From IMG/VR virus record IMGVR_UViG_3300022700_000278, positions 1 to 64,000 of that record: a stretch of DNA of 64,000 nt, one strand, 5' to 3'. A program made the translations under genes and the position numbers. The stretch is from a virus. The notes under the pieces are model-generated. The model made no database searches. It was not told the origin of the DNA and worked only from the letters and a program-made list of their open reading frames with translations. Positions 1 through 62,116 of this stretch are shown in pieces; the stretch's first letter is position 1; each line of letters begins with the position of its first letter.

Positions 1-435
1 GACTTTGGTCTTGCCGAAAACCTCGGCATTGCCGCAGACCTTGGCCTCGCCGGAGACCACGGTCTTGCCGGCGACCTTGGCATTGCCGAAGACCTCGGCG
101 TTGCCGAAGACCTTGGCATTGTCGAAGACCTCGGCGTTGCCGTAGACCTTGGCATTGCCGAAGACCTCGGTCTCGCCGCAGATCACGGCTTTGCCGGAGA
201 CCAAGGCGCCGCCGTAGATCTTAGCGCTGTCGCAGATCACGGCTCTGCCGGAGACCGTGGCTTCGCCGGCGATTTTGGCATTGCCGCAGATCTTGGCATT
301 GCCGGAGACCACGGCGTTGGGGCCGACTGTCGCGTTCGGCCCAACCCAGCCACCGAGCGAGCTGTCTTTCAGCTCCACTCGGTGGAGCGTCTCTCCCTTC
401 CAGGAGAGAGCGGGCAAGTCTTTTCGAACCTTCAT
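1..435 (-). CDS. Hexapeptide-repeat left-handed beta-helix protein (partial, 3' end outside window)
   Basis: Read on the minus strand from an ATG at 433-435, preceded by a strong AGGAGGA ribosome binding site, the frame stays open for 145 codons to the window edge. About 30 unique residues are followed by some 17 tandem hexapeptides of the form V-x-G-N-A-K, for example VFGNAKVYGNAEVF. This pattern is typical of left-handed parallel beta-helices such as YdcK-like or polymer-forming proteins, with a small hydrophobic residue pointing inward on each short strand. No catalytic residue can be recognised. In phages such proteins are usually uncharacterised; a structural or scaffold role is inference. 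The underlying DNA is itself a degenerate 18-bp repeat, so copy number may vary. Codons are GC-rich, like the neighbouring leftward genes and unlike the rightward virion genes. The 63-aa plus-strand frame at 257-448 is its shadow. Confidence 0.85.
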   Translation of the reverse strand, partial: MKVRKDLPALSWKGETLHRVELKDSSLGGWVGPNATVGPNAVVSGNAKICGNAKIAGEATVSGRAVICDSAKIYGGALVSGKAVICGETEVFGNAKVYGNAEVFDNAKVFGNAEVFGNAKVAGKTVVSGEAKVCGNAEVFGKTKV

Positions 436-642
436 CGCTTCCTCCTAGAGAGGGGGGACGAGATCATTGGCCCTCGTCCTTTGGCCAGCGCCGGTTTGGT
501 TACCGGCACGCCCCATTAAGCCCGACTTGCACGGGCATCTGAAGTTATGTCACCTTGTGTGATATATCTTCAGACGGGACGACTCCTTTTTGTTCCCCGT
601 GGAGTCAGAGGACTAGAGGTTTTGGGTAATCTTTGAGAGCCT
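436..642 (-). other. Structured leader upstream of the beta-helix gene
   Basis: This 207-bp gap on the leftward transcript holds no ORF but at least five stem-loops: CTAGAGG/CCTCTAG (613-619 with 640-646, overlapping the upstream stop codon); a long imperfect hairpin at 539-573 closed by CTGAAG/CTTCAG; GCCCG/CGGGC (520-536); GCCGGT/ACCGGC (490-507); and GGACGAG/CTCGTCC (456-479). The last lies just before the AGGAGGA of the beta-helix gene. No T-loop sequence like that of the neighbouring tRNA-like elements is present. It could be a processed or regulatory leader; no known riboswitch class was recognised. Confidence 0.5.
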
Positions 643-795
643 CTAGGTTTCCTTTTTAAGGCGTATCGCCCGGAAATCTCTCAAAGCGGCCCATCTACAA
701 TAGCCTAAGCTATTGCCACCGGCTGGGCTTTCTCCTATGTGGAGGTGTGGTGCGGGGCTGGGTTCCCATCCCAGCTTACCGCTAAGAACAATCAT
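643..795 (-). CDS. Small hypothetical protein (50 aa)
   Basis: A short leftward frame starting at ATG 793-795, directly behind a good ribosome binding site (AAGGAGG, about 8 bases upstream), and ending with TAG at 643-645. The product begins MIVLSGKLGWEPSP and ends in a basic tail, RLKKET. No domain or membrane segment is recognised. A longer reading from TTG at 846 would begin inside the tRNA-like element and is unlikely. The gene is the last of three tiny ORFs that each follow a tRNA-like element plus a hairpin. That repeated arrangement and the strong ribosome binding site are the main reasons to accept it as real. Confidence 0.55.
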   Translation of the reverse strand: MIVLSGKLGWEPSPAPHLHIGESPAGGNSLGYCRWAALRDFRAIRLKKET

Positions 796-819
796 TCCTT
801 TTTCCTCCTTGGAACATGA

Positions 820-833
820 GGGCAGAGTTGCCC
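820..833 (-). other. 3' hairpin of tRNA-like cassette 1
   Basis: A 5-bp hairpin, GGGCA/TGCCC with a 4-base loop, three bases after the 3' side of tRNA-like element 1 on the minus strand. The corresponding hairpins of cassettes 2 and 3 occupy the same position but have different sequences, so structure rather than sequence appears to be kept. Confidence 0.5.
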
Positions 834-836
834 TAT

Positions 837-884
837 AGGACCGCAAGGAATCGAACCTTGCTAGACGGCACCAGCCGCGGCCCT
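837..884 (-). ncRNA. Compact tRNA-like element 1 (48 nt)
   Basis: Minus strand. The 7-base ends AGGGCCG and CGGTCCT pair as an acceptor stem with one G-U. Next to it is a canonical T-arm, CAAGG TTCGATT CCTTG. Between acceptor and T-arm there are only 17 bases: a 4-bp hairpin CGGC/GCCG with loop TGGT, then TCTAG. There is no anticodon arm and no encoded CCA (the sequence continues ATAGG). It is identical to element 2 except for one base, which changes an A-U acceptor pair to G-U and so keeps the fold. An acceptor/T-arm minihelix is the part of tRNA recognised by RNase P, RNase Z and CCA-adding enzyme (established), so a role as an RNA-processing signal is a reasonable inference. It is not a normal tRNA. 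Confidence 0.7.
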
Positions 885-1022
885 CATATTATGTAGCCTT
901 CCCAAGAGAGAAGGCGGAAGTTCCCTTCCTCCTTATACGGGTCTAGGATTTCGCCTCGTTGCATGCACGGGTAATGCATGCGAGGTTACTTCCCGATTTC
1001 AGAGGCGATGACGGAAGAGGAA
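885..1022 (-). other. Spacer with a hairpin and an orphan Shine-Dalgarno-like site
   Basis: Between small genes on the leftward transcript. It contains a 6-bp hairpin GCCTTC/GAAGGC (896-915), immediately upstream of tRNA-like element 1, in the position where cassettes 2 and 3 have a GAGCA/TGCTC hairpin. It also contains an AAGGAGGAAGG stretch that has no convincing ORF behind it. A GCATGCA motif occurs twice near 961-980. Confidence 0.4.
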
Positions 1023-1229
1023 CTAGTCCTCCTTCGTCATCTTGTCCACCAGCTTGCCGACGTACTGGTCGAAGGCAAGCTGTTGGTCGATGACCTGCCC
1101 GGCGAGCTGGGCCGAACGCTTCCGCTCGGCCGCCAGCTCGCGCTCCAGGACCTCGATCTCGCCGACCAACTTTTCAGCCGGCCGACGCAGTCGGATCTGG
1201 TGGTACAGGTCCTCGCTGCTTCTCCGCAT
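1023..1229 (-). CDS. Small charged helical protein (68 aa)
   Basis: Starts at ATG 1227-1229 with AAAGGGGA upstream and ends with TAG at 1023-1025. The product begins MRRSSEDLYHQIRL and is rich in Glu, Arg, Lys and Leu. Residues about 18-65 have heptad-like spacing (EKLVGEIEVLERELAAERKR), which suggests one long helix or a short coiled coil. No known domain. A longer frame from 1310 would start inside the tRNA-like element and is rejected. Codon use is strongly GC-ending (CTG, GAG, CGC), unlike the virion genes. It sits downstream of tRNA-like element 2 and its hairpin. Overlapping plus-strand frames here (978-1328, 1042-1302) have no ribosome binding site. Confidence 0.65.
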   Translation of the reverse strand: MRRSSEDLYHQIRLRRPAEKLVGEIEVLERELAAERKRSAQLAGQVIDQQLAFDQYVGKLVDKMTKED

Positions 1230-1281
1230 GCGAGTCCCCTTTCTGCCCCTATGTCCTGCCTTGTCAGGAGGGGCCTTGATG

Positions 1282-1297
1282 GGTGCAATATTGCACC
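1282..1297 (-). other. 3' hairpin/palindrome of tRNA-like cassette 2
   Basis: A perfect 16-bp palindrome, GGTGCAATATTGCACC, three bases 3' of tRNA-like element 2 on the minus strand. It could form a hairpin in RNA or act as a dimeric protein operator in DNA. A near copy occupies the same place after element 3. Confidence 0.55.
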
Positions 1298-1300
1298 TAT

Positions 1301-1348
1301 AGGACCGCAAGGAATCGAACCTTGCTAGACGGCACCAGCCGCGGTCCT
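1301..1348 (-). ncRNA. Compact tRNA-like element 2 (48 nt)
   Basis: Minus strand. The acceptor stem AGGACCG/CGGTCCT is a perfect 7 bp. The insert is CGGC-TGGT-GCCG plus TCTAG, and the T-arm CAAGG TTCGATT CCTTG is the same as in element 1. The whole unit, including the flanking CTATAGG, is a near-exact duplicate of 831-884. D-stem and anticodon arm are absent. It lies between the small genes 1393-1599 and 1023-1229 on the same strand, so it must be part of their transcript if they are co-transcribed. The single base difference from element 1 lies in the acceptor stem and preserves pairing, which argues for RNA-level selection. Confidence 0.72.
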
Positions 1349-1352
1349 TATC

Positions 1353-1378
1353 GAGCAGTATGTTTAATGTCCTTGCTC
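1353..1378 (-). other. Upstream hairpin of tRNA-like cassette 2
   Basis: A GAGCA/TGCTC stem with a 16-base loop, four bases 5' of tRNA-like element 2 on the minus strand. The stem and part of the loop (ACATTAAACA compared with ACACTAAAC) recur upstream of element 3 at 1722-1743, so this is a repeated part of the cassette. Confidence 0.5.
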
Positions 1379-1392
1379 AGAGGACAGGGGGG

Positions 1393-1599
1393 CTAGCGCT
1401 GCTCGACCCAGCAGCGCCAACCCTTCCGGGGGCGCCCGCTATCCCTGACCACCTCACCGGTGGTCAGGTAATAGCGGTCTCCGAACGGGCAGAACTGTGC
1501 GGAGGTCTCCCCCCGCACGACTGCCCCGTCCAGCTCGCCCTTGTAGACGAGCTGGGCCTTGCGGCTGGGCCGCCTCACGAACACGGCGAAGGTTGCCAT
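1393..1599 (-). CDS. Small hypothetical protein (68 aa)
   Basis: Starts at ATG 1597-1599 behind a strong AAGGAGGAAGG site and ends with TAG at 1393-1395. The product begins MATFAVFVRRPSRKAQLVYK and contains FCPFGDRYYLTTGEVV, with a basic Arg/Trp-rich end (RKGWRCWVEQR). The alternating hydrophobic pattern suggests a small beta-rich fold, but no family is recognised. It is the first ORF of the leftward run and follows tRNA-like element 3 and its hairpin. Codons are GC-ending. Apart from the ribosome binding site, the support is position in the repeated cassette. Confidence 0.65.
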   Translation of the reverse strand: MATFAVFVRRPSRKAQLVYKGELDGAVVRGETSAQFCPFGDRYYLTTGEVVRDSGRPRKGWRCWVEQR

Positions 1600-1634
1600 A
1601 ACCTTCCTCCTTGGGGCATATGGCCCCGGTTGGT

Positions 1635-1650
1635 GGTGCGGTATTGCACC
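1635..1650 (-). other. 3' hairpin of tRNA-like cassette 3
   Basis: A hairpin with arms GGTGC and GCACC plus one G-U pair and a GTAT loop, three bases 3' of tRNA-like element 3. It is a degenerate version of the palindrome at 1282-1297. Confidence 0.45.
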
Positions 1651-1653
1651 TAG

Positions 1654-1716
1654 TGCCCAGGTAGGGAATCGAACCCTACATTTTCCTCACCTAGCCTACT
1701 AGGATATCTCTGGGCA
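1654..1716 (-). ncRNA. Compact tRNA-like element 3 (63 nt)
   Basis: Minus strand. The acceptor TGCCCAG/CTGGGCA is a perfect 7 bp, and the T-arm GTAGGG TTCGATT CCCTAC keeps the same TTCGATT loop as elements 1 and 2 although the stem sequences are all different. The 30-base interior contains one 5-bp hairpin CCTAG/CTAGG with loop TAGG, then a purine-rich GAGGAAAA. There is no second arm, so no cloverleaf. Conservation of acceptor, T-loop and one-hairpin architecture with changed stem sequence is covariation-like evidence for the fold. It is the most upstream element of the leftward transcript and leads into the 1393-1599 gene. Confidence 0.62.
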
Positions 1717-1721
1717 GGAGA

Positions 1722-1743
1722 GAGCAGTTTAGTGTCTATGCTC
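1722..1743 (-). other. Upstream hairpin of tRNA-like cassette 3
   Basis: A GAGCA/TGCTC stem with a 12-base loop, five bases 5' of tRNA-like element 3. It shares stem and loop sequence with 1353-1378. Confidence 0.45.
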
Positions 1744-2425
1744 AGGACTGGGGGGTAGCTGTGTGTGACACACGCAGTGCTCCGGTGGGGTTCCACGCTG
1801 ACCTGGGACAGCAGTACTGTCCACTGGCACAGCGCAGTCACACGCAGCTTTTCTTTTCGGCGGGGAGACAACAACGACCACGTAGAATACAGTTACAGAC
1901 AGGGGGCTGTCTGTAGCACACAGTACCTAGTCTTTATGTGGTGCTCTAGGTACTGGCTAGCACGCTGTTCTCAGGACTTCTCCTGCAGGGTGCTAATCTT
2001 CTCATCATAGAGCAGGCCTGTTTTTTTTAGCAGGCGCTAGGCTGTGTATAGCACTGATAACTAGCACGTCCGCAGACAGAGCTATCTCTGTCTGGTCACA
2101 CATGACATGCTGTTACAGGATGAACTTCACATCCTTTCAGTGATGCATACGTGGTCAGTGAGCTTCAACTTCAACTTCAGCTTCAGATGTAGATGTGATG
2201 TAGATGTAACTGTAACGTTGGAACAAATATCTCTAGCCCAGGTGTCTCTCTGCCCAGACAGCAGAGACCTGAGAGATATTCGTTATCTCACTTTTCTTTT
2301 TTCTCGCTGCGTATCCATCAGTGAGTACGGATACTGTCGGAGCGCACCAGGACTGGGTCGCACAGCGACCCCCCGGGCTCCGAACGCGAGAAGACATCCT
2401 TGCGGACATCATTACTACTAGGTCA
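1744..2425. other. Non-coding hairpin array between divergent transcription units
   Basis: No supported gene. Perfect or near-perfect inverted repeats follow one another: GGACAG/CTGTCC (1806-1822); TACAGACAG/CTGTCTGTA with loop GGGG (1894-1915); a 10-bp stem CAGTACCTAG/CTAGGTACTG (1921-1955); CAGACAGAG/CTCTGTCTG with loop CTAT (2073-2094); AGGATG/CATCCT (2117-2135); a long three-part hairpin closed by AATATCTC/GAGATATT (2226-2280); GTATCC/GGATAC (2311-2334); GGGTCGC/GCGACCC with loop ACA (2355-2371). Open frames here (1765-2010, 2107-2421) lack ribosome binding sites and run through the hairpins. Possible roles are a structured RNA, a replication origin, or protein-binding sites; none can be chosen from sequence alone. 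Confidence 0.6.
2163..2209 (+). repeat. Short hexamer repeats
   Basis: Four tandem CTTCAR hexamers (2163-2186) are followed by three or four ATGTRR-type units (2187-2209). This is simple-sequence DNA inside the hairpin array; length variation would be expected. Confidence 0.6.
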
Positions 2426-2508
2426 TGAAAATATAATTTTTTGGTTTTATTTTTGTGAAAATATAATTTTTTGGTTTTATTTTTGTGAAAATATAATTTT
2501 TTGGTTTT
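2426..2508 (+). repeat. Three tandem 30-bp AT-rich repeats
   Basis: The unit runs TGAAAATATAATTTTTTGG followed by TTTTATTTTTG. Copies 1 and 2 (2426-2455, 2456-2485) are identical and copy 3 (2486-about 2508) is truncated and diverges at its end. Exactly 30-bp spacing places the TATAAT of each copy nearly three helical turns apart, on the same face of the helix. They lie between the hairpin array and the rightward promoter. Iterons or a DNA-unwinding element of an origin, or tandem promoter -10 boxes, are possible; no good -35 accompanies the TATAAT boxes. These are not CRISPR repeats because there are no spacers. Confidence 0.9.
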
Positions 2509-2682
2509 TTATTGCAGAATATGCTCTTTTTTTTTTGGGGGGAGCGTAGTTTTATAGGGGTTTTCATAGAGATATATTTTTCTTGAACTTCTTTTTATAG
2601 GCTTTTTTTATATATTTTTTTTTGCGCGCGCTGGTTTATAGGGGGTATTTTTTCTTCTTGTGGTGTATTTTTGCTGGATTAG
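2509..2682 (+). other. AT-rich non-coding tract with three TTTATAGG motifs
   Basis: Very T-rich on the plus strand and without an ORF. The motif TTTATAG(G) occurs at 2551, 2594 and 2635, at 43- and 41-bp spacing (about four helical turns). A GCGCGCGC run at 2624-2631 interrupts the AT tract. The spacing suggests operator or phage-specific promoter sites ahead of the rightward operon, or an origin-unwinding region. Confidence 0.5.
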
Positions 2683-2711
2683 TTGACAGGAGGATAGGCG
2701 GAGGTTATATT
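2683..2711 (+). promoter_or_regulatory. Sigma70-type rightward promoter
   Basis: A perfect -35 TTGACA (2683-2688), a 17-bp spacer and a -10 TATATT (2706-2711), so a start near 2718 is expected. It points into the heat-shock gene at 2773. It is the only consensus-quality bacterial promoter seen in the window and may drive much of the rightward virion operon. Confidence 0.8.
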
Positions 2712-2728
2712 AAGAGCAAGATAACCGA

Positions 2729-2750
2729 GCCACGTTATATGAAGCGTGGC
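2729..2750 (+). promoter_or_regulatory. 5'-UTR hairpin before the heat-shock gene
   Basis: GCCACG/CGTGGC with a 10-base loop lies within the first 35 bases of the predicted transcript and about 11 bases before the AAGGAGGGAG site of the Hsp20 gene. It could stabilise the mRNA 5' end. A thermosensor role is only speculation, because the stem does not cover the ribosome binding site. Confidence 0.5.
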
Positions 2751-2772
2751 CCTTGATGACAAGGAGGGAGTT

Positions 2773-3189
2773 ATGTTTTTAGAGACGTTTGTTCCAAGCC
2801 GACCTGCTTCCAGTTCTTACCTTAACCTTATGGATTTTCTTTTTTATCATTGGCCCAAGGAGGATCCCAAGCCTCCTGCGGCCTGGCGCCCCAAGAAAAA
2901 TAGCCAAGGAGAAGTTGTGGGGGCGGAGATCCAGCTTGCGCTGGCTGGGTTCAAGGAGGAAGATCTATCTGTGTATGCCAGCGGGCGCCAATTGGTAGTC
3001 GAGGGAAGCAACATGGACAGAGAGGACGTAAACTTAAAGTGGAGAGCGGAGTTCTCCAAGAAGTTTTCTCTCCAGGAGCGGCTTGACATCAAGAACGCGG
3101 AAGTAGAATTTTATGATGGGCTTTTGTCTATCAGCATTCCGCTAGAGGAGTCGGCAAAGAAGGCTATTCCGTTGTTTGGAAAGAAATGA
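2773..3189 (+). CDS. Small heat-shock protein (Hsp20/alpha-crystallin family)
   Basis: 138 aa from ATG 2773, chosen over the upstream GTG at 2746 because AAGGAGGGAG lies 3-12 bases before it. Residues about 45-130 form an alpha-crystallin domain: a start like AEIQLALAGFKEEDLSVY, a middle LVVEGS strand, an FSKKFSLQERLD segment, and YDGLLSISIPL near the end, which matches the G-x-L signature of the family. A short tail AIPLF resembles the C-terminal anchor motif. Small heat-shock proteins hold unfolding proteins in an ATP-independent way (established); several tailed phages carry one, probably to aid virion assembly (inference). It is the first gene after the sigma70 promoter. Confidence 0.88.
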   Translation: MFLETFVPSRPASSSYLNLMDFLFYHWPKEDPKPPAAWRPKKNSQGEVVGAEIQLALAGFKEEDLSVYASGRQLVVEGSNMDREDVNLKWRAEFSKKFSLQERLDIKNAEVEFYDGLLSISIPLEESAKKAIPLFGKK

Positions 3190-4608: not shown

Positions 4609-7600
4609 TTGTCCTTTATGGGAAAGGCTGAAGAGCGGTTCTTTCGCTACGTAGAATCTCTAGAAAAAGAGCTAGAGAACAAGCCTGCGTTCCAGGACTA
4701 TAGGAGAGAGGTATCGGAGTACCTGGTAAGGCACTCTGATTCTATTGCGGCATACTCTCCGGAACAACTCATATCAGAAGCGTCGTCTTTCGAGGAGCTT
4801 CTTGCTCTTCGGGGGTTTCTGCGAGACAAGTTTGGAAACGAACAGGGCTGGTGGAGCTATTATCACGAGAAGAGAAGAGAGCTTGCCACGGCGCCCAGTT
4901 ACTATGGAAAAGGAAAGTTTGGAGTCCCGGTAAATCCGCAGGTTTTTCATAGACACTGGGGAAAGGGACAGCAGTCGGCGATAATACAAAGAGATCTGCT
5001 TCCTCAGCAGTTATCCTATACTCAAATAACGGGACGAGAGCCTCTGTGGCATGCAAAAGAGGGGAGGATACCGAAAGGATTTTCTCAGCCTCTTTCTTTC
5101 AAGCCGAGCCGAGCAGACAAGTATTTTTCTTTTGATATAGAAACGACGGGCCTGCTACATCAGCTAAGAAGCCCAAAAACGGGCTCTCAAAGAGGGCTTT
5201 ATTCTATAGGCTGGGTTTCGGAAGAAGGAACTGGAGAGTGGTTCCAGCGACAGCTTGCGCCAAGAGCAAAAGGAAAATGGGCGGGACAGCCTGGGACGAG
5301 ACCGTTCTACGGATATGAAGTAGAAGAGATCGTCTCCAAAGGACAGAAGGTTGCGGCTTCTCTTCCAATGGAGGTCCAGGAGGTAGCAGGAGAGAAAGAA
5401 CTTCTGGCAGGATTCTTGAAGAGCTTGAAGAAACAACCCAAGGATAGGGTGCTTCTCGGGTTCAACATAGAGAAGTTCGACATTCCATTCCTGAAGGCAA
5501 TCGCTTATCGTCATGGCCGAGAAAAAGAGCTAGAGGCTGCGTTAAAAGGAAGAAAAGTTGTTGATGTAGCAGAAGAGACGAAGGGGTTCTTGTCTCAGCA
5601 GCTCTCTGGTAAATATCTTGGCTGGCAGCGCTCTATGTTCGAAGACATGGGGCTCTCTCCAAAGGGATGGACGCTGGAGTCTATCGCGCACGCCCTGGGG
5701 TACCAAGCCAAAGAAGGGGCGGTAGCCCATACCCCAAAAACAGACGCCTCTATGGCTGCTTTTGTCCACGAAACTTTATCGGACGAGAGAAAAGCTAAAA
5801 AGATATGGAGAGCAGGCGGAGAACAAAGGTATTTGAAGTTCCTCGCAGAAAGAGGGACAACCCTTACTCCGTTGTCTGCCATAGAAGACATGACAGAGGT
5901 CCGGGCCGGAGGCGTGTATATGAAGCCCCAGGCCGCCCTGTCTCCCGAAACCTATGAGACTCCTCTTCTCTCTAGGTTGTCGGCCAAGTACGGAGCTCGA
6001 GATCCCAGCCCTCTTCCCGTCCCGGTAGCCGAGCCGGCGAGCCCTAAAACGTTTGCTGTCTCTCCTCGTGTGAAAAAGGCGGCAAGGATTGGGGCAAAGG
6101 GACTAAAGTATCTTGGCGCGACAGCTCTTCTCGGAGCAGCTCTGCCTGGCCAAGGAACTAGCAACTTCTTTGGCGCTGGAGCTTCTATTGCATCGTGGAA
6201 GCTCGTCGCGAAACAAAAGGGGAACATTGCTACGAGAGCCCTCGCCGCGGGTGTTTCGTATGCGGCAGTAAAAGGCCTGGCTCCGGGATCCTTTGACAGC
6301 ATGTCCAAGGGAGGAATGTCTGAGGCGATAAGACACTATCAGACAGACTTTGGCTCTCCCTGGCAGGGCCCCAAGGTTTCTGGTCCGCTATCTATTAGCT
6401 TGATGGCAGGGGCCGGGCTTGCTCTTGGTACTGGAGCTGCCATTCTGGCATTTTCCTCTGTTGAAGGAGAGGAGCCGCCGAAACAAGAAAAAGTCCATGG
6501 TCAATACATTGATCCGGAGATCATGGAGTTCAGAAAGAAGTGGATCAAAGCGCCGGGAAAACGAAGAGAGCTGGAGAGGATAAAGGATGAAGCTTATGAG
6601 CCGATGCAGCCCGGAGATCTGGAGGACTGGAGGCTAAAAGATAAAAGAGGAAAGCTGGCTCGGGTAGATCTGAGTGGACTCACCCCTGTGTGGGAGGACG
6701 TGGACACGCTTCTTCTGGAGCAGCCTTGGTACAAGCCGTGGAAGAGAGACATCGGTATTCGCCTAACCGGCATAGATGCCCCAGAGATCGAGCACCCAGA
6801 CGATCCTGTTCCGTGGACAAGAAGAAAGCAGTCGCAGCCCTTTGGAAAAGAAAGCGTCGAAAAGCTAAAAGAGCTTATTGGAGACGAAAAACTAGAAGTA
6901 TATGTGGCCTCTGACCCAGATCAGAGAACGTATAAAAGATATCTTGGTGCGATCTTCAGAGAAGGCTCTGAGGTTCCACTCAATGTCGAGGCTGTTCAAA
7001 GAGGACTTGCTGCGGCGTTGCCCTGGGGGGAGTCTGGGACAGACATAATTCCTCGAGAACAGCTTATCCGAGAAGAACAAGAAGCTGCTTTTGCTCGCCG
7101 AGGGATGTGGAAGGAAGAGTTCTGGCAGAGATACCTGGATCTGTCTGTTGGAGCGGGCCGAAGAGTAACTTTTACGTCATTCTCTGACCTGTCTAGGCTA
7201 GCAGCTAACTTACACCTTGCTGCGGCAGAAGAGTTAATGAGCAGGGACGATATCGAGTATCAGCCTTGGATGGGAAGGTATATCGGCGGAAAGCTAAACG
7301 TCAACTATTCCGGCAGCGCAAGTTCTGGTACGAGAAACAAAATAGACGCTCTTCACTATGGTTCTACGAATAGCATGGGTGCCTTATCTATGAAGGCGCA
7401 TTCTGACTTTGGTTCTGGTGTGGTCAAGGGAGCGTTGAAGAGGACGGGTTCCTGGTTTAAATCCATGTGGGAAAGAGTCAGGGGCATCAAGAAAAAAGGA
7501 GGAACGCTTACAGAGAAAGGGGCTATTCTAAAGGGAGAGAGGGCGTTTGCCGAGATGAAGCGCAGAGGCCTTTTCTCAAAAAAAGCTCAAGAACGGGAGC

Positions 7601-8991
7601 TGGCTTATGCTGATACCATATTGGCAAGCCAAGAAGAGCTGGCCGATACCGTAATTGACAAGCCTCCTGGAAGAGAGACCGTTGATTTAAAAAATCCAAA
7701 CTGGATGTTTCCGGAGATTCCTACTCCGAAGCATGGAGTGTTTGATCCGTATACGAGAGGAAAGCTTGCAAACCATATTTATGCGGGCCCTCTTCCAAAG
7801 ATTAGGGACGGAGTTAGCGGTGAAAACTTTTCTGTTACGCGAGAGTTCTCTTTGGCCGAGAAAGAAAACGTGTTCTTGCAGGCTGCAAAGAAGAGGGGCC
7901 TCGAGTTCTCTGAGACACCAGATTTAAGCGGAGAGTCTTTTGCGACCAAGATTCGAAGCATGCTGAACGAGGCAGAAAAACCTCCTGGAAGAGAGACGGT
8001 CGATTTGAAAAATCCGGGTTGGGTTTTTCCGGAAGTTCCCGTCCCGAAACAAGGAGAGTTTGATCAATATACGAAAAACAATCTTTCAAAACACCTTCAT
8101 GCAGCTCCTCTTCCAAAGATTAGAGATGGGGTTAGTGCCGGGGATTCTTTTGTTACGCGAGAGTTTTCTTTGGCTGAGAAAGAAGAAGTGTTCTTGCGGG
8201 CGGCAAAGAAGAAGGGCCTCGAGTTTTCTGTCATGCCCAACCTTAAAGAGGGGTCCCTTCCTGCCAGGGTTCGAGACGTTCTGGATGTGGGAAAGAAGCC
8301 TCCTGGGCGAGAGACTGTCCAGCTAAAAAATCCGGCTTGGATGTTCCCAGAGGTTCCTGCTCCGAAACACGGAGAGTTTGACCCGTATACGAAAAACAAC
8401 CTTTCAAAGCACGTCTATGCGGGCCCTCTTCCAAAGATTAGGGATGGGGTTAGCGATGAAAACTTCTCTGTTACGAGAGAGTTTTCTTTGGCCGAGAAAG
8501 AAGAGGTGTTTTTGCGGGCTGCGGAGAAAAAAGGACTCAAGTTTTCTGCGATGCCAGATCTAGGCGAGGGGTCTTTTGCAGCCAGGATCCGAGAATTGTT
8601 GACGGAGTTCAAAGGAGACTTTGAGTCTAGGTGGGAGAAGTTTAAGCATCTTGCTTCCGGTCTTTTTAGGAAAGACGAGTCTAGTGCTGTGCTTAGGGGA
8701 GGCGTGGGAAAGGCTTCGCGGACTGATTTTGATCTTGCCTGGCAAGCAGGCTCGACAGGAGTGGAAAGAGAACGGCTGGCAGAACAGGCTGGTTCTTTGG
8801 TAGACGAGAGGCTCTCGTTGCTGGAGAGACAGAAAGAAAAAGGTTTTGTTCCAAGGGGTGTCGACAGGGGAAGAGCGGCGGCGAAGCTTCGAGAGCAAGA
8901 AGAAAAGATTCCTAGTGTTGCTGTCCCCCATGTCTCGGCAAAAGAAGCGTCGAGAAGACACAAGTGGAGCGCAAACAAAGGTTTTTTATAA
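4609..8991 (+). CDS. DEDDh exonuclease / staphylococcal-nuclease fusion with 106-aa repeats (1460 aa)
   Basis: Domains in order. Residues 170-385 form a DEDDh (DnaQ-like) 3'-5' exonuclease with FDIETTG (D176, E178), GFNIEKFD (D291) and HTPKTD (H374, D379). About 490-640 are glycine/alanine-rich hydrophobic segments. About 690-840 form a staphylococcal-nuclease domain that keeps the catalytic set D699, R718, D723, E726 and R777. Residues 1018-1335 hold three tandem 106-aa repeats starting KPPGRETV. The tail is basic and helical. Both nucleases look active. The hydrophobic stretches and the neighbouring glycine-zipper genes suggest a virion or injected protein that could attack host DNA or trim phage DNA; this is inference. 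The start is TTG 4609 (ATG 4618 is the alternative); an ATG at 4602 is out of frame. Confidence 0.88.
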   Translation: MSFMGKAEERFFRYVESLEKELENKPAFQDYRREVSEYLVRHSDSIAAYSPEQLISEASSFEELLALRGFLRDKFGNEQGWWSYYHEKRRELATAPSYYGKGKFGVPVNPQVFHRHWGKGQQSAIIQRDLLPQQLSYTQITGREPLWHAKEGRIPKGFSQPLSFKPSRADKYFSFDIETTGLLHQLRSPKTGSQRGLYSIGWVSEEGTGEWFQRQLAPRAKGKWAGQPGTRPFYGYEVEEIVSKGQKVAASLPMEVQEVAGEKELLAGFLKSLKKQPKDRVLLGFNIEKFDIPFLKAIAYRHGREKELEAALKGRKVVDVAEETKGFLSQQLSGKYLGWQRSMFEDMGLSPKGWTLESIAHALGYQAKEGAVAHTPKTDASMAAFVHETLSDERKAKKIWRAGGEQRYLKFLAERGTTLTPLSAIEDMTEVRAGGVYMKPQAALSPETYETPLLSRLSAKYGARDPSPLPVPVAEPASPKTFAVSPRVKKAARIGAKGLKYLGATALLGAALPGQGTSNFFGAGASIASWKLVAKQKGNIATRALAAGVSYAAVKGLAPGSFDSMSKGGMSEAIRHYQTDFGSPWQGPKVSGPLSISLMAGAGLALGTGAAILAFSSVEGEEPPKQEKVHGQYIDPEIMEFRKKWIKAPGKRRELERIKDEAYEPMQPGDLEDWRLKDKRGKLARVDLSGLTPVWEDVDTLLLEQPWYKPWKRDIGIRLTGIDAPEIEHPDDPVPWTRRKQSQPFGKESVEKLKELIGDEKLEVYVASDPDQRTYKRYLGAIFREGSEVPLNVEAVQRGLAAALPWGESGTDIIPREQLIREEQEAAFARRGMWKEEFWQRYLDLSVGAGRRVTFTSFSDLSRLAANLHLAAAEELMSRDDIEYQPWMGRYIGGKLNVNYSGSASSGTRNKIDALHYGSTNSMGALSMKAHSDFGSGVVKGALKRTGSWFKSMWERVRGIKKKGGTLTEKGAILKGERAFAEMKRRGLFSKKAQERELAYADTILASQEELADTVIDKPPGRETVDLKNPNWMFPEIPTPKHGVFDPYTRGKLANHIYAGPLPKIRDGVSGENFSVTREFSLAEKENVFLQAAKKRGLEFSETPDLSGESFATKIRSMLNEAEKPPGRETVDLKNPGWVFPEVPVPKQGEFDQYTKNNLSKHLHAAPLPKIRDGVSAGDSFVTREFSLAEKEEVFLRAAKKKGLEFSVMPNLKEGSLPARVRDVLDVGKKPPGRETVQLKNPAWMFPEVPAPKHGEFDPYTKNNLSKHVYAGPLPKIRDGVSDENFSVTREFSLAEKEEVFLRAAEKKGLKFSAMPDLGEGSFAARIRELLTEFKGDFESRWEKFKHLASGLFRKDESSAVLRGGVGKASRTDFDLAWQAGSTGVERERLAEQAGSLVDERLSLLERQKEKGFVPRGVDRGRAAAKLREQEEKIPSVAVPHVSAKEASRRHKWSANKGFL
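7660..8613 (+). repeat. Three tandem 318-bp coding repeats
   Basis: Units begin at 7660, 7978 and 8296, exactly 318 bp (106 codons) apart. Each encodes KPPGRETV, then a W-[MV]-FPE motif, LPKIRDGVS and TREFSLAEKE. DNA identity is visibly high, including silent positions, which indicates fairly recent duplication or gene conversion inside the nuclease fusion gene. Confidence 0.92.
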
Positions 8992-22099: not shown

Positions 22100-23353
22100 A
22101 TGACTATGATGGAAGAGCGGCTAAGCAAGGCATTCGGCGAGGATCCAAAAAACCACAAGCTGTATGCCGACGCTTGGATGAACAACGGATGGAGTGATAC
22201 TCTGGGTGGACGCCTAGAGTTCAAAGACTTCATGGCGACTTCGAATGCTCAATATTGGCTGCCGAAGACCGTAGAGGAAATTGTTCGCGAACCCGTAGAG
22301 CCTCTTACAATTATTCCAAAGATCATGGATAGAGTAGAGGCTCGGAATGGGGCGAGAATTACGTTCCCGGCCGTTGGTAGCCTGGTAGCTTACGACCTTG
22401 CTGAGGGTCAGGCATACCCCGAGCAGCAGCTAAACATCTCTCCCGGGACCATGACGGTAAACATCGGGAAAACCGGTCTTGCTTTCAAGATCTCAGAGGA
22501 GATGCGTAGAAACAGTCAGTTTGACGTGATCAACATGCATCTGCGGCAGGCACGTCAGGCGCTGGATCGTCACAAAGAGGTTAAGGGGATGAACATGATT
22601 TCGGGCATGGGGACTACCCTGTTCGACAACAAGACTCCCGCAACCGCTGTTTATGGCGTATGCACTGGCCGAGACATTACCGGTAGTGGAAACGGTTCTT
22701 GTACGATGGAGGATCTTGTCAAGGCATATTCCTTCATCATGATGCAGGGTTTCCGTCCCGACACGATTCTTGTTAATCCAATGACGTGGTCGATGTGGAT
22801 GGCGGATCCTTTAATGCAGGCTATCGTCAAGAACACTGGTCGTGGCAACTGGTTCCAGCCCACGAACATGCCACAGTCTAGTAGGCCGTGGGACAATGCC
22901 AGCCAGGGTGGCCTAGGCAAGTCTTCTGGTCGCCAGTACACCCCTGGTAACAATGCGGCAAGTGCAAGCGCTTCTTCTGGCTCGGACATCGACCAGACAC
23001 TTACAAGCGCGCCGCAGATTCCTGGGTATTTCCCAGAGCCGCTTAACGTCATTGTGTCGCCATTCGTGCCTTATGATTATGACAATGACCTGGCGGACAT
23101 CATGCTTTTTGACTCGAAGAACCTTGGTGCTCTTCTTGTTGAAGAAGATGTTATGATGGACGAGTGGGAAGACAAGTCGGTAGACTTAACCAAGATTAAG
23201 CTTCGTGAGCGGTATGACTTCGGCATCTATCACGATGGTCTTGGTATCGGCGTGCTGCGGAACGTGCCAACTGAGCCAAACCGCATTGCCATGCCGGTTG
23301 AGCCTACGGTTACTGGTCTGAGCGAGATTTCGAGCACCAGTTCGGTACTGTAA
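22100..23353 (+). CDS. Major capsid protein (HK97 fold)
   Basis: 417 aa from ATG 22100, chosen over TTG 22082 because AGGAGGG lies about 8 bases before it. The pattern fits HK97-like capsid proteins: an N-terminal helical arm; an E-loop-like stretch (ARITFPAVGSLVAYDLAEGQ); a long spine helix region (EEMRRNSQFDVINMHLRQAR); FRPDTILVNPMTWSMWM, as in many HK97-type capsids; and a C-terminal P-domain-like end with LRERYDFGIYHDGLGIGVLR. A Gly/Ala/Ser-rich loop at about 278-305 could be exposed on the surface. It follows the protease-scaffold and accessory genes and is followed by a strong terminator. Confidence 0.88.
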   Translation: MTMMEERLSKAFGEDPKNHKLYADAWMNNGWSDTLGGRLEFKDFMATSNAQYWLPKTVEEIVREPVEPLTIIPKIMDRVEARNGARITFPAVGSLVAYDLAEGQAYPEQQLNISPGTMTVNIGKTGLAFKISEEMRRNSQFDVINMHLRQARQALDRHKEVKGMNMISGMGTTLFDNKTPATAVYGVCTGRDITGSGNGSCTMEDLVKAYSFIMMQGFRPDTILVNPMTWSMWMADPLMQAIVKNTGRGNWFQPTNMPQSSRPWDNASQGGLGKSSGRQYTPGNNAASASASSGSDIDQTLTSAPQIPGYFPEPLNVIVSPFVPYDYDNDLADIMLFDSKNLGALLVEEDVMMDEWEDKSVDLTKIKLRERYDFGIYHDGLGIGVLRNVPTEPNRIAMPVEPTVTGLSEISSTSSVL

Positions 23354-56266: not shown

Positions 56267-59200
56267 GTGACCATTTCAAGTTATGATAGAATGGTTGATG
56301 TTTTTCCAACCGTCTTCGATTTCAAGGTTGGAGAACAACCAAGCAGCAGAAAACTTACCAAGTGGGTAAAGCTAACTGACAATGCTTTCCGTCTTGTTAC
56401 GCAAGCAGTGGGAGACCCGTGGGACTATCAGACTCATGAGGGACAGCTTAGTCCTCAAAAGTTAGGACAAGCAACTATTGCTAGGCTAATTGGGCCGTCT
56501 GATTATGTTGGGCCGCTTGGCGAAACAATCAACTCAGACACCACTTCAGTGGAAGTTTCTTTGTCTGTTGACGGGGCAAGCTCTTGGTATCTAGGGTTTC
56601 CTTTGGTCAAAAAAGCAGGAACGGTCACGCCACAGGTGTTGCCCTCTTGTTTAGAAAGCCTAACGGCATCTGATCTTAGTTTTTCTGGCACTGGCTATTC
56701 AGATTACTTCGTTACGCTCTATTCTGACCCCAGAGACATGAGCCAAAAGGGCGACTATTGTGTTGATTTTGCTAGAGGCGTTATTCAGACATATCTGCCT
56801 ATCGATCCTGGTGATGGCAGCGGGTCGTTAACTGTAACGATAAGCAACCTAAGTTTTGTTGGGGCCGGAGCGCCGTGGGCAACGCACAACGTCATTCCCA
56901 TCTGGGAAGATGGCGGAAATGCTGGAGTAACAATTGTAGAAGCTGCGCTGGGACCAGGGAATTATGAAATTACCCTGCCAGGCAGAGATGCCTCTGGGTA
57001 TTCTAATGATTACCCAAGAGTGGGAGCCGCAGAAGACTCCCCGTCTAACACGATGACCGGTGCGGGATATCCTGAAAGCGATCCTCTTACTGGCGACCGC
57101 CGCCAAGCAACTCTTGCTGTTCGACCAACAGGGAACGTTTCTTATCGATTGCCTTATTCTTTAGAGGCGAACTATTCTAGCGGGGACGTTCTTCCAGGAG
57201 GCACGGTAAAGCTTTGGTGCAACAGCACAAATAGCTTTGTCGCGCTAACTGAGTTTGAGTATGTTAGCCCAACAACCCTAAAGCTAACTTGCCCAACGCT
57301 GTCAGACGTAGATGCGACCGGGAACGAAAACAACTATCGACTTGTTGTGGTTGGGACAAGCTTAGCAGAACAAGTAAGTTATCTTGCTGGCGTAGTGAGA
57401 GAAGGCCAGGGACAAGGGGTCTCTGTTGGTGGCCCCGCCACCTTCCCTAGCATGAGTTTTAGTCCTCCAATGTCGCACGACAGGCTTAGAGATCGCTATG
57501 GCTTTTCGCTAGCAATGGAAGAGAGCGGGGATTTTTCTTCGTGGGCTAGTTCGCACGACAACTGGCAAAGAAGGTTTGCGTTTACAGAGTCTGCTTATCC
57601 GACTAACCCACACCCACAATATTTGCATAGAGCAGGGTATTTGTCTGACGACGAGACAGCAAATACTAGCAACGCCATGCGAGGATGGCTGTGCTTCGCT
57701 GGATACAAGACAGAAACCAGTGGCCACAGCTATGAAAGCTCCAAGTCTAACCCAGGGTTCAACTCTCCCATTGACGAGTGGACTTACGGTGTTGCTTGGG
57801 GTGCTGGAGAATTTGAGAATTCTAGCGGAGATCATCCCAGAGCGTTTTTCGACGGGGGAAAAGAAAAAGAATGGAGCGGTTCTGGTCCGGCGACTAGGTT
57901 GGGATTTGGTCTTTATGGTTCTGATGGCGGGCTTGGGTTTGCAGAATCTTCTTACTATTCAAACTATGGAGCATTGGTTTATGAGGGATTCAGGGGCCAG
58001 CCGTTCTATGTCAGGGGAAGAAAGGGTGCAAGCAGTTCGCTAGATACAAGTGTTCATGGCGGAGCCATCGCCATGGACCTAGGCGATCAGAACGAGATGA
58101 ACTATCTTAAGCTTGTCGGAGGCAGTCGTCCCTCGACAGGAAGTTATGCCGGAGATCCCGCCAACGATCCTGCATGGATAGATGCTTCTTCTTCTGTGTT
58201 TAACACACCGCTGGCAATTACTCCTGGGCTAAGCAAAAGAATCTCTGCAGAACAGACCAGAGAACTTAGGTTTAGAGGCGTCTCTTATAATGAGCTTGTT
58301 CAGAATGCTGAAGATGGTATCGGCTCTCTTTCTACCTACCCCTCTTCTGGAGTACAAAAAACAGCTAATGTAGTATTGCTGGATGCAACGCTTAATTACA
58401 TGGTGTTAGAGGGGAATGTTGCTGGCGACATTCGTATGAATGACACCACGATAACCCTTAGTGGCACTACCAGTGACGGAGACTATCAGATTTCAGATCT
58501 TGCTGATTATGACGCAGTCAACGACCATACGTACCTGACCGTTACTGGTAGCATAAGCAGCAACCAACCTGCTCCTGGTGGAACAGCTACTTGGACTACA
58601 TACGAGTTTAATCGATACTTCAGATCTCCTGGCATTATTGGAGGAGACTTCCTCAACGTATATGGCAATGCAGTCTTTTTCTCTGAAGAAGGAGATGGCA
58701 AAAAGACTTCCTTTACCGACAGAGGAAAGGAATGGCTTACAGATGGCACTACAACGCCTTCTGGCCTGTTTTACGTTCCCGCCGGGACGCTTGGTTCTGC
58801 TTGTGTTTTTGTTGGGTATGAAGGCAGCGGCACTGGCAGCTATGACGGAGCAAAGACGCAAGCTTATTTTGGACACACGAGGGGTTCTTGGGCAAACTCT
58901 ACGCTTGGTGTTAAGCGAGGGCTACAATTTGAGGGCCACGACGACTCCGGCTTGCATGTCGCATATAATACTACCGGCGGGACAACGTACCCTGCTTCTA
59001 ATACAGCAGAGCAGGGGCTATCCTGTATCGTGTACAAGGTGCACGGAGAAAGTTTTTCTGCGGGCGACAACACCATCACCGTTGCAGATTCTTCTTATTT
59101 GCCAAAATGTATTCGTTCCCCAGAAAGCGGATCGGTTTCAGATAACTTTAAGAAAAGAGTTGTGGGGGTGGAAACCTTGGCAAGACAGTCTAGCGGGGAT

Positions 59201-59479
59201 GTGTTTTATCCGTTGTCTTCTGGTTCGCACTTGATTGGAGGACAAAACTATGTTTTTCAGGGGCTCTATTATTATTTAGACGGCAGCAACAACTTGTCTT
59301 TGCATACCATTTTATATGAGTGGGACTTTCTGCATGGAGAGCCAGATCTGTATGCCACTTTTTCTGAGTCGCTAGAGCTTGTTGTAAAAGTTTGGTATCT
59401 TACTAATCGCCCAAGCATTACAGATCTTCCTTATGAGTCAGCGATGAATCCACTAGACGTTGAAATAAACCCCCTCTAA
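56267..59479 (+). CDS. Tail fibre-like protein (1070 aa)
   Basis: GTG 56267 with TAGGAGTGAGG upstream. The N-terminus is helical and the rest is a long beta-rich fibre. Near residue 441 the motif HPQYLHRAGYL is characteristic of phage fibre proteins. Gly/Ser-rich loops, Tyr/Trp-rich sheets and a C-terminal head-like region (about 820-1070) suggest receptor contact. No intramolecular-chaperone peptidase signature was recognised. Confidence 0.85.
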   Translation: MTISSYDRMVDVFPTVFDFKVGEQPSSRKLTKWVKLTDNAFRLVTQAVGDPWDYQTHEGQLSPQKLGQATIARLIGPSDYVGPLGETINSDTTSVEVSLSVDGASSWYLGFPLVKKAGTVTPQVLPSCLESLTASDLSFSGTGYSDYFVTLYSDPRDMSQKGDYCVDFARGVIQTYLPIDPGDGSGSLTVTISNLSFVGAGAPWATHNVIPIWEDGGNAGVTIVEAALGPGNYEITLPGRDASGYSNDYPRVGAAEDSPSNTMTGAGYPESDPLTGDRRQATLAVRPTGNVSYRLPYSLEANYSSGDVLPGGTVKLWCNSTNSFVALTEFEYVSPTTLKLTCPTLSDVDATGNENNYRLVVVGTSLAEQVSYLAGVVREGQGQGVSVGGPATFPSMSFSPPMSHDRLRDRYGFSLAMEESGDFSSWASSHDNWQRRFAFTESAYPTNPHPQYLHRAGYLSDDETANTSNAMRGWLCFAGYKTETSGHSYESSKSNPGFNSPIDEWTYGVAWGAGEFENSSGDHPRAFFDGGKEKEWSGSGPATRLGFGLYGSDGGLGFAESSYYSNYGALVYEGFRGQPFYVRGRKGASSSLDTSVHGGAIAMDLGDQNEMNYLKLVGGSRPSTGSYAGDPANDPAWIDASSSVFNTPLAITPGLSKRISAEQTRELRFRGVSYNELVQNAEDGIGSLSTYPSSGVQKTANVVLLDATLNYMVLEGNVAGDIRMNDTTITLSGTTSDGDYQISDLADYDAVNDHTYLTVTGSISSNQPAPGGTATWTTYEFNRYFRSPGIIGGDFLNVYGNAVFFSEEGDGKKTSFTDRGKEWLTDGTTTPSGLFYVPAGTLGSACVFVGYEGSGTGSYDGAKTQAYFGHTRGSWANSTLGVKRGLQFEGHDDSGLHVAYNTTGGTTYPASNTAEQGLSCIVYKVHGESFSAGDNTITVADSSYLPKCIRSPESGSVSDNFKKRVVGVETLARQSSGDVFYPLSSGSHLIGGQNYVFQGLYYYLDGSNNLSLHTILYEWDFLHGEPDLYATFSESLELVVKVWYLTNRPSITDLPYESAMNPLDVEINPL

Positions 59480-59497
59480 GGAATGACGAATTAACCA

Positions 59498-62116
59498 ATG
59501 CCTGCTAGCAGCAAATCACTGGCTTTTTCTGTTACGGTAACTAACGTATCGAATAAGTCTTTTCAGGCGGATGTCCGTGCTAATGTGAAAAAGCGCATTT
59601 CGGATATTCTTTATCTTGCCTCTCCGCCAGACGATTCTGTTCGCCTAGAATACGTTGGATCGAAAGAGGCAACTTCTTCTACTGCGCTTTTTATTGGCGA
59701 CAGAAGCGACAGGTTGTATCAGAATGTTGATATTGAAGAGGGGAGAGAGCTGATAGTAGAGGGGAGCTCTACTGGCGTCCAGCATAAAAAATTGCTGGTA
59801 ACACAAAAGTTTAAGGAGCGCGCAGGTCAAGCACGGCCGTTATACTATAAGCATGTGTTGCCGGCACAAATTGATCTGGACTCTGTCGCTTTGTTTGACA
59901 AAGATCTAGAAGAGATTGGCAAAGAAAAGTTTAGGGTAGAATTAATACAAGAATATGACGAGGCAACAGGGCAGCCTGCAACGCCGCCAAGCTACTCGTC
60001 TGTATATGTGTTTAACAGTTTAGGAAGTTGGTTTGATGAAAACACAGGAGAGCATGAGGTTTTCTATATTCAGTATATGGACTCAGACAATGTAGTGAAA
60101 ACCGAACTCCTTAGCAACGAGCCAGCTTATACCGAAGCAACTATTGATGATATCTGGTATGTAACAAATGAGCTGAAGCCTTGGTGCTATGCATATATCT
60201 TGGATTCGTCATACACGCTGACTTTGCCAGGCAATGTAGATGCAAAGCATATGGCAATCAAATATCTAGCTCGGTCTAAGATAGAGGTTCACCAGCCTAC
60301 TTTACACGATGACACTTCCCCTTGGTTTCCCAGGGTTTCGAACGGGTCTTTTCGTGATTCTTATGGTGGCTGGTCGTATTATTATGAAGTCTCTGAATTC
60401 AGCAGCCAAGCTTTTAATCCATATGAACCATATAGAATGACAGATCGTGGGTTGGGAACAAAAATATCTAGTAATATACTGAAGCTGCCTCACGAAAACT
60501 TGTACCTAGATGGCTTTGCAAGGGATCTCTCTATTGTTATAGAAAACAACGGTGTTGTTGTAAAAGCTTTAACAAGAGATGCCTCTTTGGTGGGAGACAA
60601 CTATACTACCTTTGATGGCAGCTATGTAAAAGACGAAGATGGAGACTATATAAAGTGGTCTTCGGATGAAATTCTTAGTGTTGATGAGCTTGGCGGGTTC
60701 GTAAAATTAAGTTTTGCGCTAAAAGACTATTGGGATTGCTGGTGTGCTTACACATATGAGGAAAATCTATATGAAGTCTCCAGTCTAAATATGAATCCTA
60801 TTTATGACAGTGAAGCACACAAACAGACTAGAGCGTTATATCTTGTTCCAAAATCTGCTCCCAATGGAAATACGGCGCAAACAAGAGCGGTTCAATATAT
60901 TAAAGTTTCCCCCGGGGGTATTATTCAAAAAGCCAGCCAAGACGGTTCCGGCAACAACAATGATATTTCTGGTGATGCTCAGCTTGGTGATGCCGACGGA
61001 CACTCTATCACAAACATAGTCGGTTTGCATTATAGTTGGAGGGCAGAAACAGATATTCAAGCAAGCTTTCAGTGCGCTCCTGGCTCCGCTGTGTCTGTGG
61101 CGGGCACGGATCGGTTTCCTCGAAGCGGCTGGGTTCGTTTCTTAGACAACAATGACCATTGGGTATATGCTAAATATTCAACAAAGACAAGTAACACACT
61201 TGTTTTTTCAAGTGATTCTGGAGAAACCCCAGACTCTACTCCAACTGTAACTTTTGGGGCTCCATCTTCGGCAAAGCTTCAGGTTGTTAATTTCTTAGAT
61301 CAATATACGACAAGCTCACATTATTCTTTTTCTAGTGAGCTTGTTCATTCCGGGCTTTCTTCTGGGCTTCCAAATTGTTATTCTAGGTTTTTGTTGTTGG
61401 CGGATCTGTCCATTAATCCTCCGCTGGGCATTGGGGATCTTGCAAAGATAGACGTAAGAGAAGAAGGTGGCGGAATCCTTCCTGACAAATACGAGGAAGC
61501 GAAGCTTCTAAACCCAGAGGCTCAGTGGTACCAAGATTTCTTGCGATATGATGGCCAGCCAACTCCGGGCAATGCTGCAGCAGTAATAAAATTGCCGTCA
61601 AAACTTCTCGAGGTATTTTCAAAAGATCAGATAGAAGAAATTGTTGACAACAACATTCCTTACGGAATCAAGCCGCTCATTCGGTATTATGGATACAAAC
61701 CAGAAATTCTATCTATATCAACCACCCCAGATGGACTCCTGGTTTGTTGGGAGCCAATGGGGCCGGACTTTACTTATACCGTATGGTGTTCTTCTAAGCC
61801 AGACGGACCATGGACAAAGCATAACGAAACCCGTCTAACAGATAATTCGCTTGGAAGGTCTTATGTAAAAAATTGCTATCTTGTTGATGGTTTGTCTTCT
61901 GGCGAGGTATACTATGTGAAGGTCACATGTCTTGATAGGTATGGTATGTGGCAGTGTAGCTATGACGGCTACGACTCTGTAGAAGGCGGAGAAGACAGGA
62001 TAGATGATGCTCCGGATCCCCCGTTCGGAAATTCAGTTTCTTTTAAGGTCAGTGTCGATGTTGTGTCTTATGGGTTCGGAGAGGGAGCATTCGGTGAAGA
62101 TGAATTTGGAGGCTAG
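59498..62116 (+). CDS. Large tail protein with C-terminal FN3-like domain (872 aa)
   Basis: ATG 59498. The start (KSLAFSVTVTNVS) and the end (NSVSFKVSVDVVSYGFGEGA) resemble each other in strand pattern. Residues about 733-830 form a fibronectin III-like domain (ILSISTTPDGLLVCWEPMGP, then EVYYVKVTCLDRYG). The interior is beta-rich. Short Gly/Phe/Glu-rich ends (GEGAFGEDEFGG) could anchor neighbouring subunits. Likely a surface fibre or baseplate extension. Confidence 0.82.
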   Translation: MPASSKSLAFSVTVTNVSNKSFQADVRANVKKRISDILYLASPPDDSVRLEYVGSKEATSSTALFIGDRSDRLYQNVDIEEGRELIVEGSSTGVQHKKLLVTQKFKERAGQARPLYYKHVLPAQIDLDSVALFDKDLEEIGKEKFRVELIQEYDEATGQPATPPSYSSVYVFNSLGSWFDENTGEHEVFYIQYMDSDNVVKTELLSNEPAYTEATIDDIWYVTNELKPWCYAYILDSSYTLTLPGNVDAKHMAIKYLARSKIEVHQPTLHDDTSPWFPRVSNGSFRDSYGGWSYYYEVSEFSSQAFNPYEPYRMTDRGLGTKISSNILKLPHENLYLDGFARDLSIVIENNGVVVKALTRDASLVGDNYTTFDGSYVKDEDGDYIKWSSDEILSVDELGGFVKLSFALKDYWDCWCAYTYEENLYEVSSLNMNPIYDSEAHKQTRALYLVPKSAPNGNTAQTRAVQYIKVSPGGIIQKASQDGSGNNNDISGDAQLGDADGHSITNIVGLHYSWRAETDIQASFQCAPGSAVSVAGTDRFPRSGWVRFLDNNDHWVYAKYSTKTSNTLVFSSDSGETPDSTPTVTFGAPSSAKLQVVNFLDQYTTSSHYSFSSELVHSGLSSGLPNCYSRFLLLADLSINPPLGIGDLAKIDVREEGGGILPDKYEEAKLLNPEAQWYQDFLRYDGQPTPGNAAAVIKLPSKLLEVFSKDQIEEIVDNNIPYGIKPLIRYYGYKPEILSISTTPDGLLVCWEPMGPDFTYTVWCSSKPDGPWTKHNETRLTDNSLGRSYVKNCYLVDGLSSGEVYYVKVTCLDRYGMWQCSYDGYDSVEGGEDRIDDAPDPPFGNSVSFKVSVDVVSYGFGEGAFGEDEFGG

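Follow-up and report, generated by a model that had tools for sequence, protein, structure and literature searches.

Tiny tRNA mimics lacking an anticodon arm in a phage genome and in a wider class of phages

Three tRNA-like elements and their surroundings

The window, a stretch of 64,000 nucleotides, corresponds to positions 1 to 64,000 of the IMG/VR virus record IMGVR_UViG_3300022700_000278, which is 114,882 bases long. Its minus strand carries three tRNA-like elements at 837..884 (E1), 1301..1348 (E2) and 1654..1716 (E3), where a preliminary description had placed them. E1 consists of a 7-bp acceptor stem, a D-stem with its loop (GCGGC-UGGU-GCCGU) and a T-arm (CAAGG-TTCGATT-CCTTG), and the outer pairing can alternatively be read as 6 bp of acceptor and 6 bp of T-stem. 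E2 has the same architecture, and the two 48-nt elements differ only at acceptor pair 4, by a change from A-U to G-U that preserves pairing. E3 has the acceptor TGCCCAG/CTGGGCA, the D-stem CCUAG-UAGG-CUAGG, the T-stem GTAGGG/CCCTAC and the T-loop TTCGATT, followed by CTA; its stems differ in sequence from those of E1 and E2, and the plan is identical. The near-duplication of E1 and E2 and the shared architecture of E3 are as reported earlier, and computed folding gives these structures for the three elements (z = -2.8, -4.4 and -2.4). The earlier statement that the elements have no D- or anticodon arm holds for the anticodon arm, which is the sole missing tRNA arm, but not for the D-arm, since a D-arm-like hairpin with GG in its loop (UGGU in E1 and E2, UAGG in E3) lies between the acceptor stem and the T-arm.

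ARAGORN found no tRNA or tmRNA gene across the 114,882-base record, Rfam gave nothing at the gathering level for the window, and an Rfam E-value scan of window positions 1-2800 returned sub-threshold matches only. A full-length tRNA or tmRNA was rejected as an explanation, since neither ARAGORN nor Rfam gave one. Compared with a canonical tRNA, a cloverleaf of about 70–90 nt with an anticodon arm, E1–E3 have linkers of 17 and 30 nt, and at none of them did ARAGORN or Rfam find the mark of a tmRNA, a tRNA-like domain linked to a reading frame for a tag. A scan of the whole record for T-arm and acceptor pairing found no further element of this kind.

Each element is followed on the minus strand by a small hairpin and then by a short ORF, in agreement with the preliminary description. 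Downstream of E3, a hairpin at 1635..1650 (GGTGC-AATACC-GCACC) and a second one at 1613-1627 (GGGGC-CATAT-GCCCC) precede a 68-aa ORF at 1393..1599; downstream of E2, a hairpin at 1282..1297 (GGTGCA-ATAT-TGCACC) precedes another 68-aa ORF at 1023..1229; and downstream of E1, a hairpin at 819..834 (AGGGCA-ACTC-TGCCCT) precedes a putative 50-aa ORF at 643..795. Neither 68-aa ORF has a Pfam or PHROG match. The Shine-Dalgarno site described for the cassette is good (AAGGAGG) before the 50-aa ORF and the 68-aa ORF after E3, but weak (AAAGGGG) before the 68-aa ORF after E2. The similarity among the cassettes covers the element and the hairpin and excludes the ORFs. Hairpins also lie upstream of E2 at 1353..1378 (GAGCA...TGCTC) and, similar to it, before E3 at 1722-1743.

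Two tandem promoter-like sites (TTCACA-18-TATATT), which are consensus matches only, are located at 2430..2489 on the minus strand, 5' of the E3–E1 unit, and the stretch 2430-2540 of the same strand contains three direct repeats rich in AT (CCAAAAAATTATATTTTCA), of which two score as promoter-like. About 675 nt directly 5' of E3 (1745-2420, minus strand) are rich in hairpins and contain no evident gene; window positions 1600-2420 have a folding z of -7.8 (20 shuffles) and no Rfam match, and the hairpin-rich stretch is possibly a large structured non-coding RNA. Many short inverted repeats are seen at 436-640 on the minus strand, between the 50-aa ORF and a hexapeptide-repeat gene, and the plus strand encodes an HSP20-family small heat-shock protein at 2746-3189 (Pfam 7e-11).

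In BLASTN of window positions 1-2800 against named phages, the best matches fall in the last ~310 bases, the part taken up by the hexapeptide repeats that the leftmost gene encodes. The only close relatives of the phage found are two partial contigs, both without the E1–E3 region, and searches through the HSP20-like gene and a 1460-aa gene found no relatives. The best terminase match is in Moorella phage MTATph1 (31% identity), in which neither covariance model R1 nor R2 finds an element.

A class of elements in other phages

The elements are not private to the window. An exact IMG/VR scan for the E1/E2 T-arm revealed unrelated phages with tRNA mimics even shorter than E1 and E2, and a scan of IMG/VR for TGG-N10-GGTTCGATTCC gave at least 120 stretches. 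Among the matches listed, a perfect 6-bp acceptor stem accompanies the 6-bp T-stem at a linker of 11 nt in 17 of the 63 hits with a full T-stem, whereas other linker lengths give 0–2 perfect acceptors in this register; in the other register, where linker values near 39–41 fit ordinary tRNAs, the count never exceeds 4. In the refined linker form, an 11-nt linker (NNUGGWNNNNN) leads from an outer stem of 6 bp to an inner stem of 6 bp with the loop TTCGA[T/C/G]T, and the tail [A/T]-C-[T/A]-A is often present; the reversed-sequence control for this pattern gave no matches. Alignment A1 of 38 such sequences contains 193 double-change cells compared with 49.5 in shuffles; because its rows had been chosen for pairing, the peak in linker offset is cleaner evidence than the covariation. 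The exact patterns skew the sample toward TTCGATT and GG/CC closing pairs, and a pattern scan without the T-stem constraint returned chance matches, except for two loci already known.

A second form carries a D-stem. In a scan for CTGGTG-N7-12-GGTTCGATTCC, 90 hits had a 5-bp T-stem; an acceptor lies close upstream in 32 of these and ends 0–2 nt 5' of CTGGTG in 29 of the 32. The D-stem is usually 3–5 bp long, and its commonest cap is UGGU, the loop of E1 and E2. In alignment A2, whose rows were likewise chosen for pairing, all 15 of the 15 pairs covary, with 71 double-change cells against 19.9. Homologues with compensatory changes, which the preliminary description had proposed to look for with a covariance model, are therefore found, and compensatory change is extensive in both forms. 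Covariance model R2 was built from 11 phage sequences of the D-stem form, none of them from the window. Over 123,882 bases, its matches were exactly E1 (E = 5.8e-8), E2 (E = 3.5e-9) and E3 (E = 1.4e-7), whose own record accounts for about 115 kb. Since a model made from other phages only picks exactly these three, E1–E3 are beyond chance.

Pattern scans of IMG/VR followed by structure checks yielded, among the matches listed, 117 non-redundant elements, and most of these come from phages unrelated to one another. They have in common a 12-bp acceptor/T stack and a T-loop, together with either the ~11-nt linker or a short, usually UGGU-capped D-stem. E1–E3 have the 12-bp stack, a loop of the TTCRANY type and the GG-bearing D-stem without an anticodon arm, and they lie between genes, in the same orientation as the genes, with a hairpin just downstream. 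Judged from their sequences, E1–E3 belong to a widespread, apparently undescribed phage class of tiny tRNA mimics without an anticodon arm.

The isolate Polaribacter phage P12002L (NC_028924) carries the only convincing element among the named phages tested, unannotated and just 5' of gp82 (E=5e-14); it reads GATATG-TTAC-TGGT-GTAA-TTTA-TAAAGG-TTCGATT-CCTTTA-CATATC and has the plan of E1 and E2. A match in phi38:1 (5.5e-5) was rejected as an element because it sits on an annotated tRNA-Lys. An unannotated, larger tRNA-like fold (GCCGACG/CGTCGGC acceptor) was seen 5' of gp24 in Salinibacter phage M1EM-1 (NC_042348, ~22,150-22,240, plus strand).

True copies are rare in bacterial genomes. When 257 Gb of bacterial and archaeal genomes were scanned with a specific pattern, there were three hits, each with the structure of an element. 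They lie in two Bacteroidetes-group MAGs and one Clostridia MAG, and the Clostridia locus has a second element. Apart from the centre genomes, model searches of about 200 genomes per class gave a single true-looking element for the first class and no trusted one for the second, two rates that are not comparable because different models were used. Clostridia genome matches near E=1e-6 were rejected as elements since by eye they resemble a full tRNA; a model score alone is thus no proof, and calls rest on architecture together with score.

Position of the elements relative to genes

Placement was scored for the 105 elements with enough flanking sequence, relative to frames of 60 codons or more. 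Of these elements, 56 begin between -3 and 15 nt from the stop codon of such a frame, where random positions on the same strand would give 5.8. Another count, of elements located within long frames of the same strand, gives 18 where 64 would be expected. A hairpin of at least 5 bp begins 1–7 nt past the acceptor in 41 of the 117 elements, against 8–14 in control windows and 5.3 in shuffles, and the hairpin starts peak 2–4 nt after the acceptor. Because hairpin and placement are enriched in this wider sample, the cassette in which a tRNA-like element is followed by a hairpin and an ORF is a recurrent one. C74 is present in 75 of the 117 elements and a full CCA is rare; all of the first 42 elements have C74, about one third of them having been preselected with an ACTAA tail.

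Phage G038 has 11 R2 matches, about ten of them at gene junctions; most start where an ORF ends or just past that point, with a short hairpin next and a start codon about 30 nt on, and the match at 15714 falls within a longer frame. In one phage family (L047, L069, L088, L102, L109, L118 and L147), the element follows a ~410-aa gene by about 10 nt, the acceptor is constant and the T-stem varies with compensation; the ~410-aa protein of L047 matches annotated phage major capsid proteins. One record (L010/L023) contains a cluster of three elements, each between ORFs. Dense arrays with a spacing of about 100–270 nt and seemingly no long ORFs between the elements are present at L378 (G042 6410-7632) and L379 (G040 58451-59992), and in L379 a conserved GTGAA-bearing hairpin lies 5' of many elements.

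Candidate role in mRNA punctuation

The elements can be modelled as a mimic of the top half of tRNA, keeping the acceptor stem, the T-arm and the D-loop or D-arm. The anticodon arm is dispensable for recognition by RNase P. Minimal hairpins of acceptor stem, T-stem and T-loop are cut efficiently by RNase P RNA, as recounted in PMC11143913, and PMC12710915 describes at least one unusual RNase P substrate for which a 3' RCCA motif is important. The phage elements have kept the parts that minimal RNase P substrates require. These observations lead to a hypothesis that we consider probable, namely that elements of the E1–E3 class punctuate polycistronic phage mRNA through cleavage, which we infer, by host RNase P and perhaps RNase Z. 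Located at gene junctions of a polycistronic RNA, an element would be read by host RNase P through its elbow and 12-bp acceptor/T stack and cut on its 5' side, and RNase Z may also cut past the discriminator. The upstream RNA would then be left ending near its own stop codon, and the downstream mRNA would begin with the tRNA-like fold or with a small hairpin a few nucleotides from the new 5' end, which may shield it from 5'-end-dependent RNases; RNase Z cleavage and the stabilising hairpin are plausible second steps. In the phage of the window, E3 would part the first ORF from its long structured leader, and the cistrons that follow would be divided by E2 and E1.

Of the readings offered in the preliminary description, RNA punctuation has the best support, which comes from the anatomy of the elements, with their acceptor and T-arm kept and their anticodon arm lost, from about 100 relatives, from their junction placement and from the downstream hairpin. 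The 11-nt linker peak, the D-stem covariation, the R2 result, the stop-codon placement and the G038 junctions all argue for it. The finding of C74 in 75 of the 117 elements, the rarity of full CCA and the arrays seemingly without long ORFs argue against it, as does the fact that an exact RNase P cut at the acceptor would split some upstream stop codons. The elements could instead remain uncut and act in cis, the tRNA-like fold and hairpin tuning translation or stability of the next cistron. The location of the elements tens of nucleotides 5' of start codons, the hairpin that is often part of the cassette and the single leader recurring before most genes in the sampled stretch of G038 agree with this, but it is a rather unlikely explanation, as it does not account for the retention of exactly the features that tRNA-maturation enzymes read (the 12-bp stack, the T-loop, the GG of the D-loop and the frequent C74) while stem sequences are free to vary.

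The dense arrays in G040 and G042 would suit small RNAs that are released and act in trans, for example as decoys of host tRNA-processing or tRNA-binding proteins, whereas elements outside arrays lie at ORF junctions and start at stop codons; decoys for anticodon nucleases are impossible since the anticodon arm is absent, and we regard a trans role as improbable. The presence of a T-arm and an acceptor, and the known occurrence of tRNA fragments in phages, might suggest that the elements are left over from decayed tRNA genes or integrase target sites. Fixed architecture, several copies per phage and gene-wise orientation speak against this very improbable origin, and the many compensatory changes already disfavour it. 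The mobile small-gene unit suggested in the preliminary description, taken here as one that carries its own leader, fares equally poorly and is very doubtful: E1 and E2 are near-duplicates and acceptors recur within one phage, but the adjoining ORFs are unrelated both between and within phages, and the similarity within the window stops short of the ORFs.

Among known systems, plant mitochondrial t-elements are likewise tRNA-like structures at mRNA ends proposed as RNase P substrates for transcript punctuation (Forner 2007, as cited in PMC4368725), and the phage elements share this location at mRNA gene junctions; t-elements, however, are organellar, whereas the phage elements measure 41–63 nt, have no anticodon arm and number several per phage. 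The tRNA-like domain of tmRNA also has an acceptor, a D-loop and a T-arm and no ordinary anticodon arm, whereas the phage elements are several unrelated copies per genome lying between genes, with no tmRNA found by ARAGORN or Rfam. The mascRNA/menRNA family, a small tRNA-like fold, is processed by RNase P and RNase Z; its Rfam model RF01684 gives 19.1 bits in a shifted register, below the gathering threshold of 42.5. The minimal acceptor/T-arm domain recurs in an RNase P model substrate (McClain, in PMC11143913), which is synthetic, whereas in the phages the domain is supplemented with a GG linker or D-stem and forms part of an mRNA. C4 antisense RNA and M3 RNA, listed in PMC11143913, are phage transcripts processed by RNase P, but as listed there they are individual RNAs rather than a repeated intergenic element, and E1–E3 have no Rfam match. 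As the preliminary description had supposed, no account of the phage elements was found in Rfam, ARAGORN or the searched open-access literature; the novelty is provisional because subscription papers and the supplementary tables of motif surveys (e.g. PMC8040213) lay outside this search.

If mRNA punctuation is correct, phages would commonly cut their polycistronic RNA by tRNA mimicry, a process known from organelles and, as a general phage device, undescribed in the literature searched. Current annotation misses the elements because, lacking an anticodon arm, they are not reported by ARAGORN; they provide a list of testable candidate RNase P substrates and may be used as a marker of gene junctions in phage sequence. 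There is an even chance, in our estimate, that this phage class, extending over several host groups, makes the host tRNA maturation machinery a general mRNA processor at gene junctions and brings along a 5' hairpin of its own, and that in some phages it would be the usual leader of operon genes.
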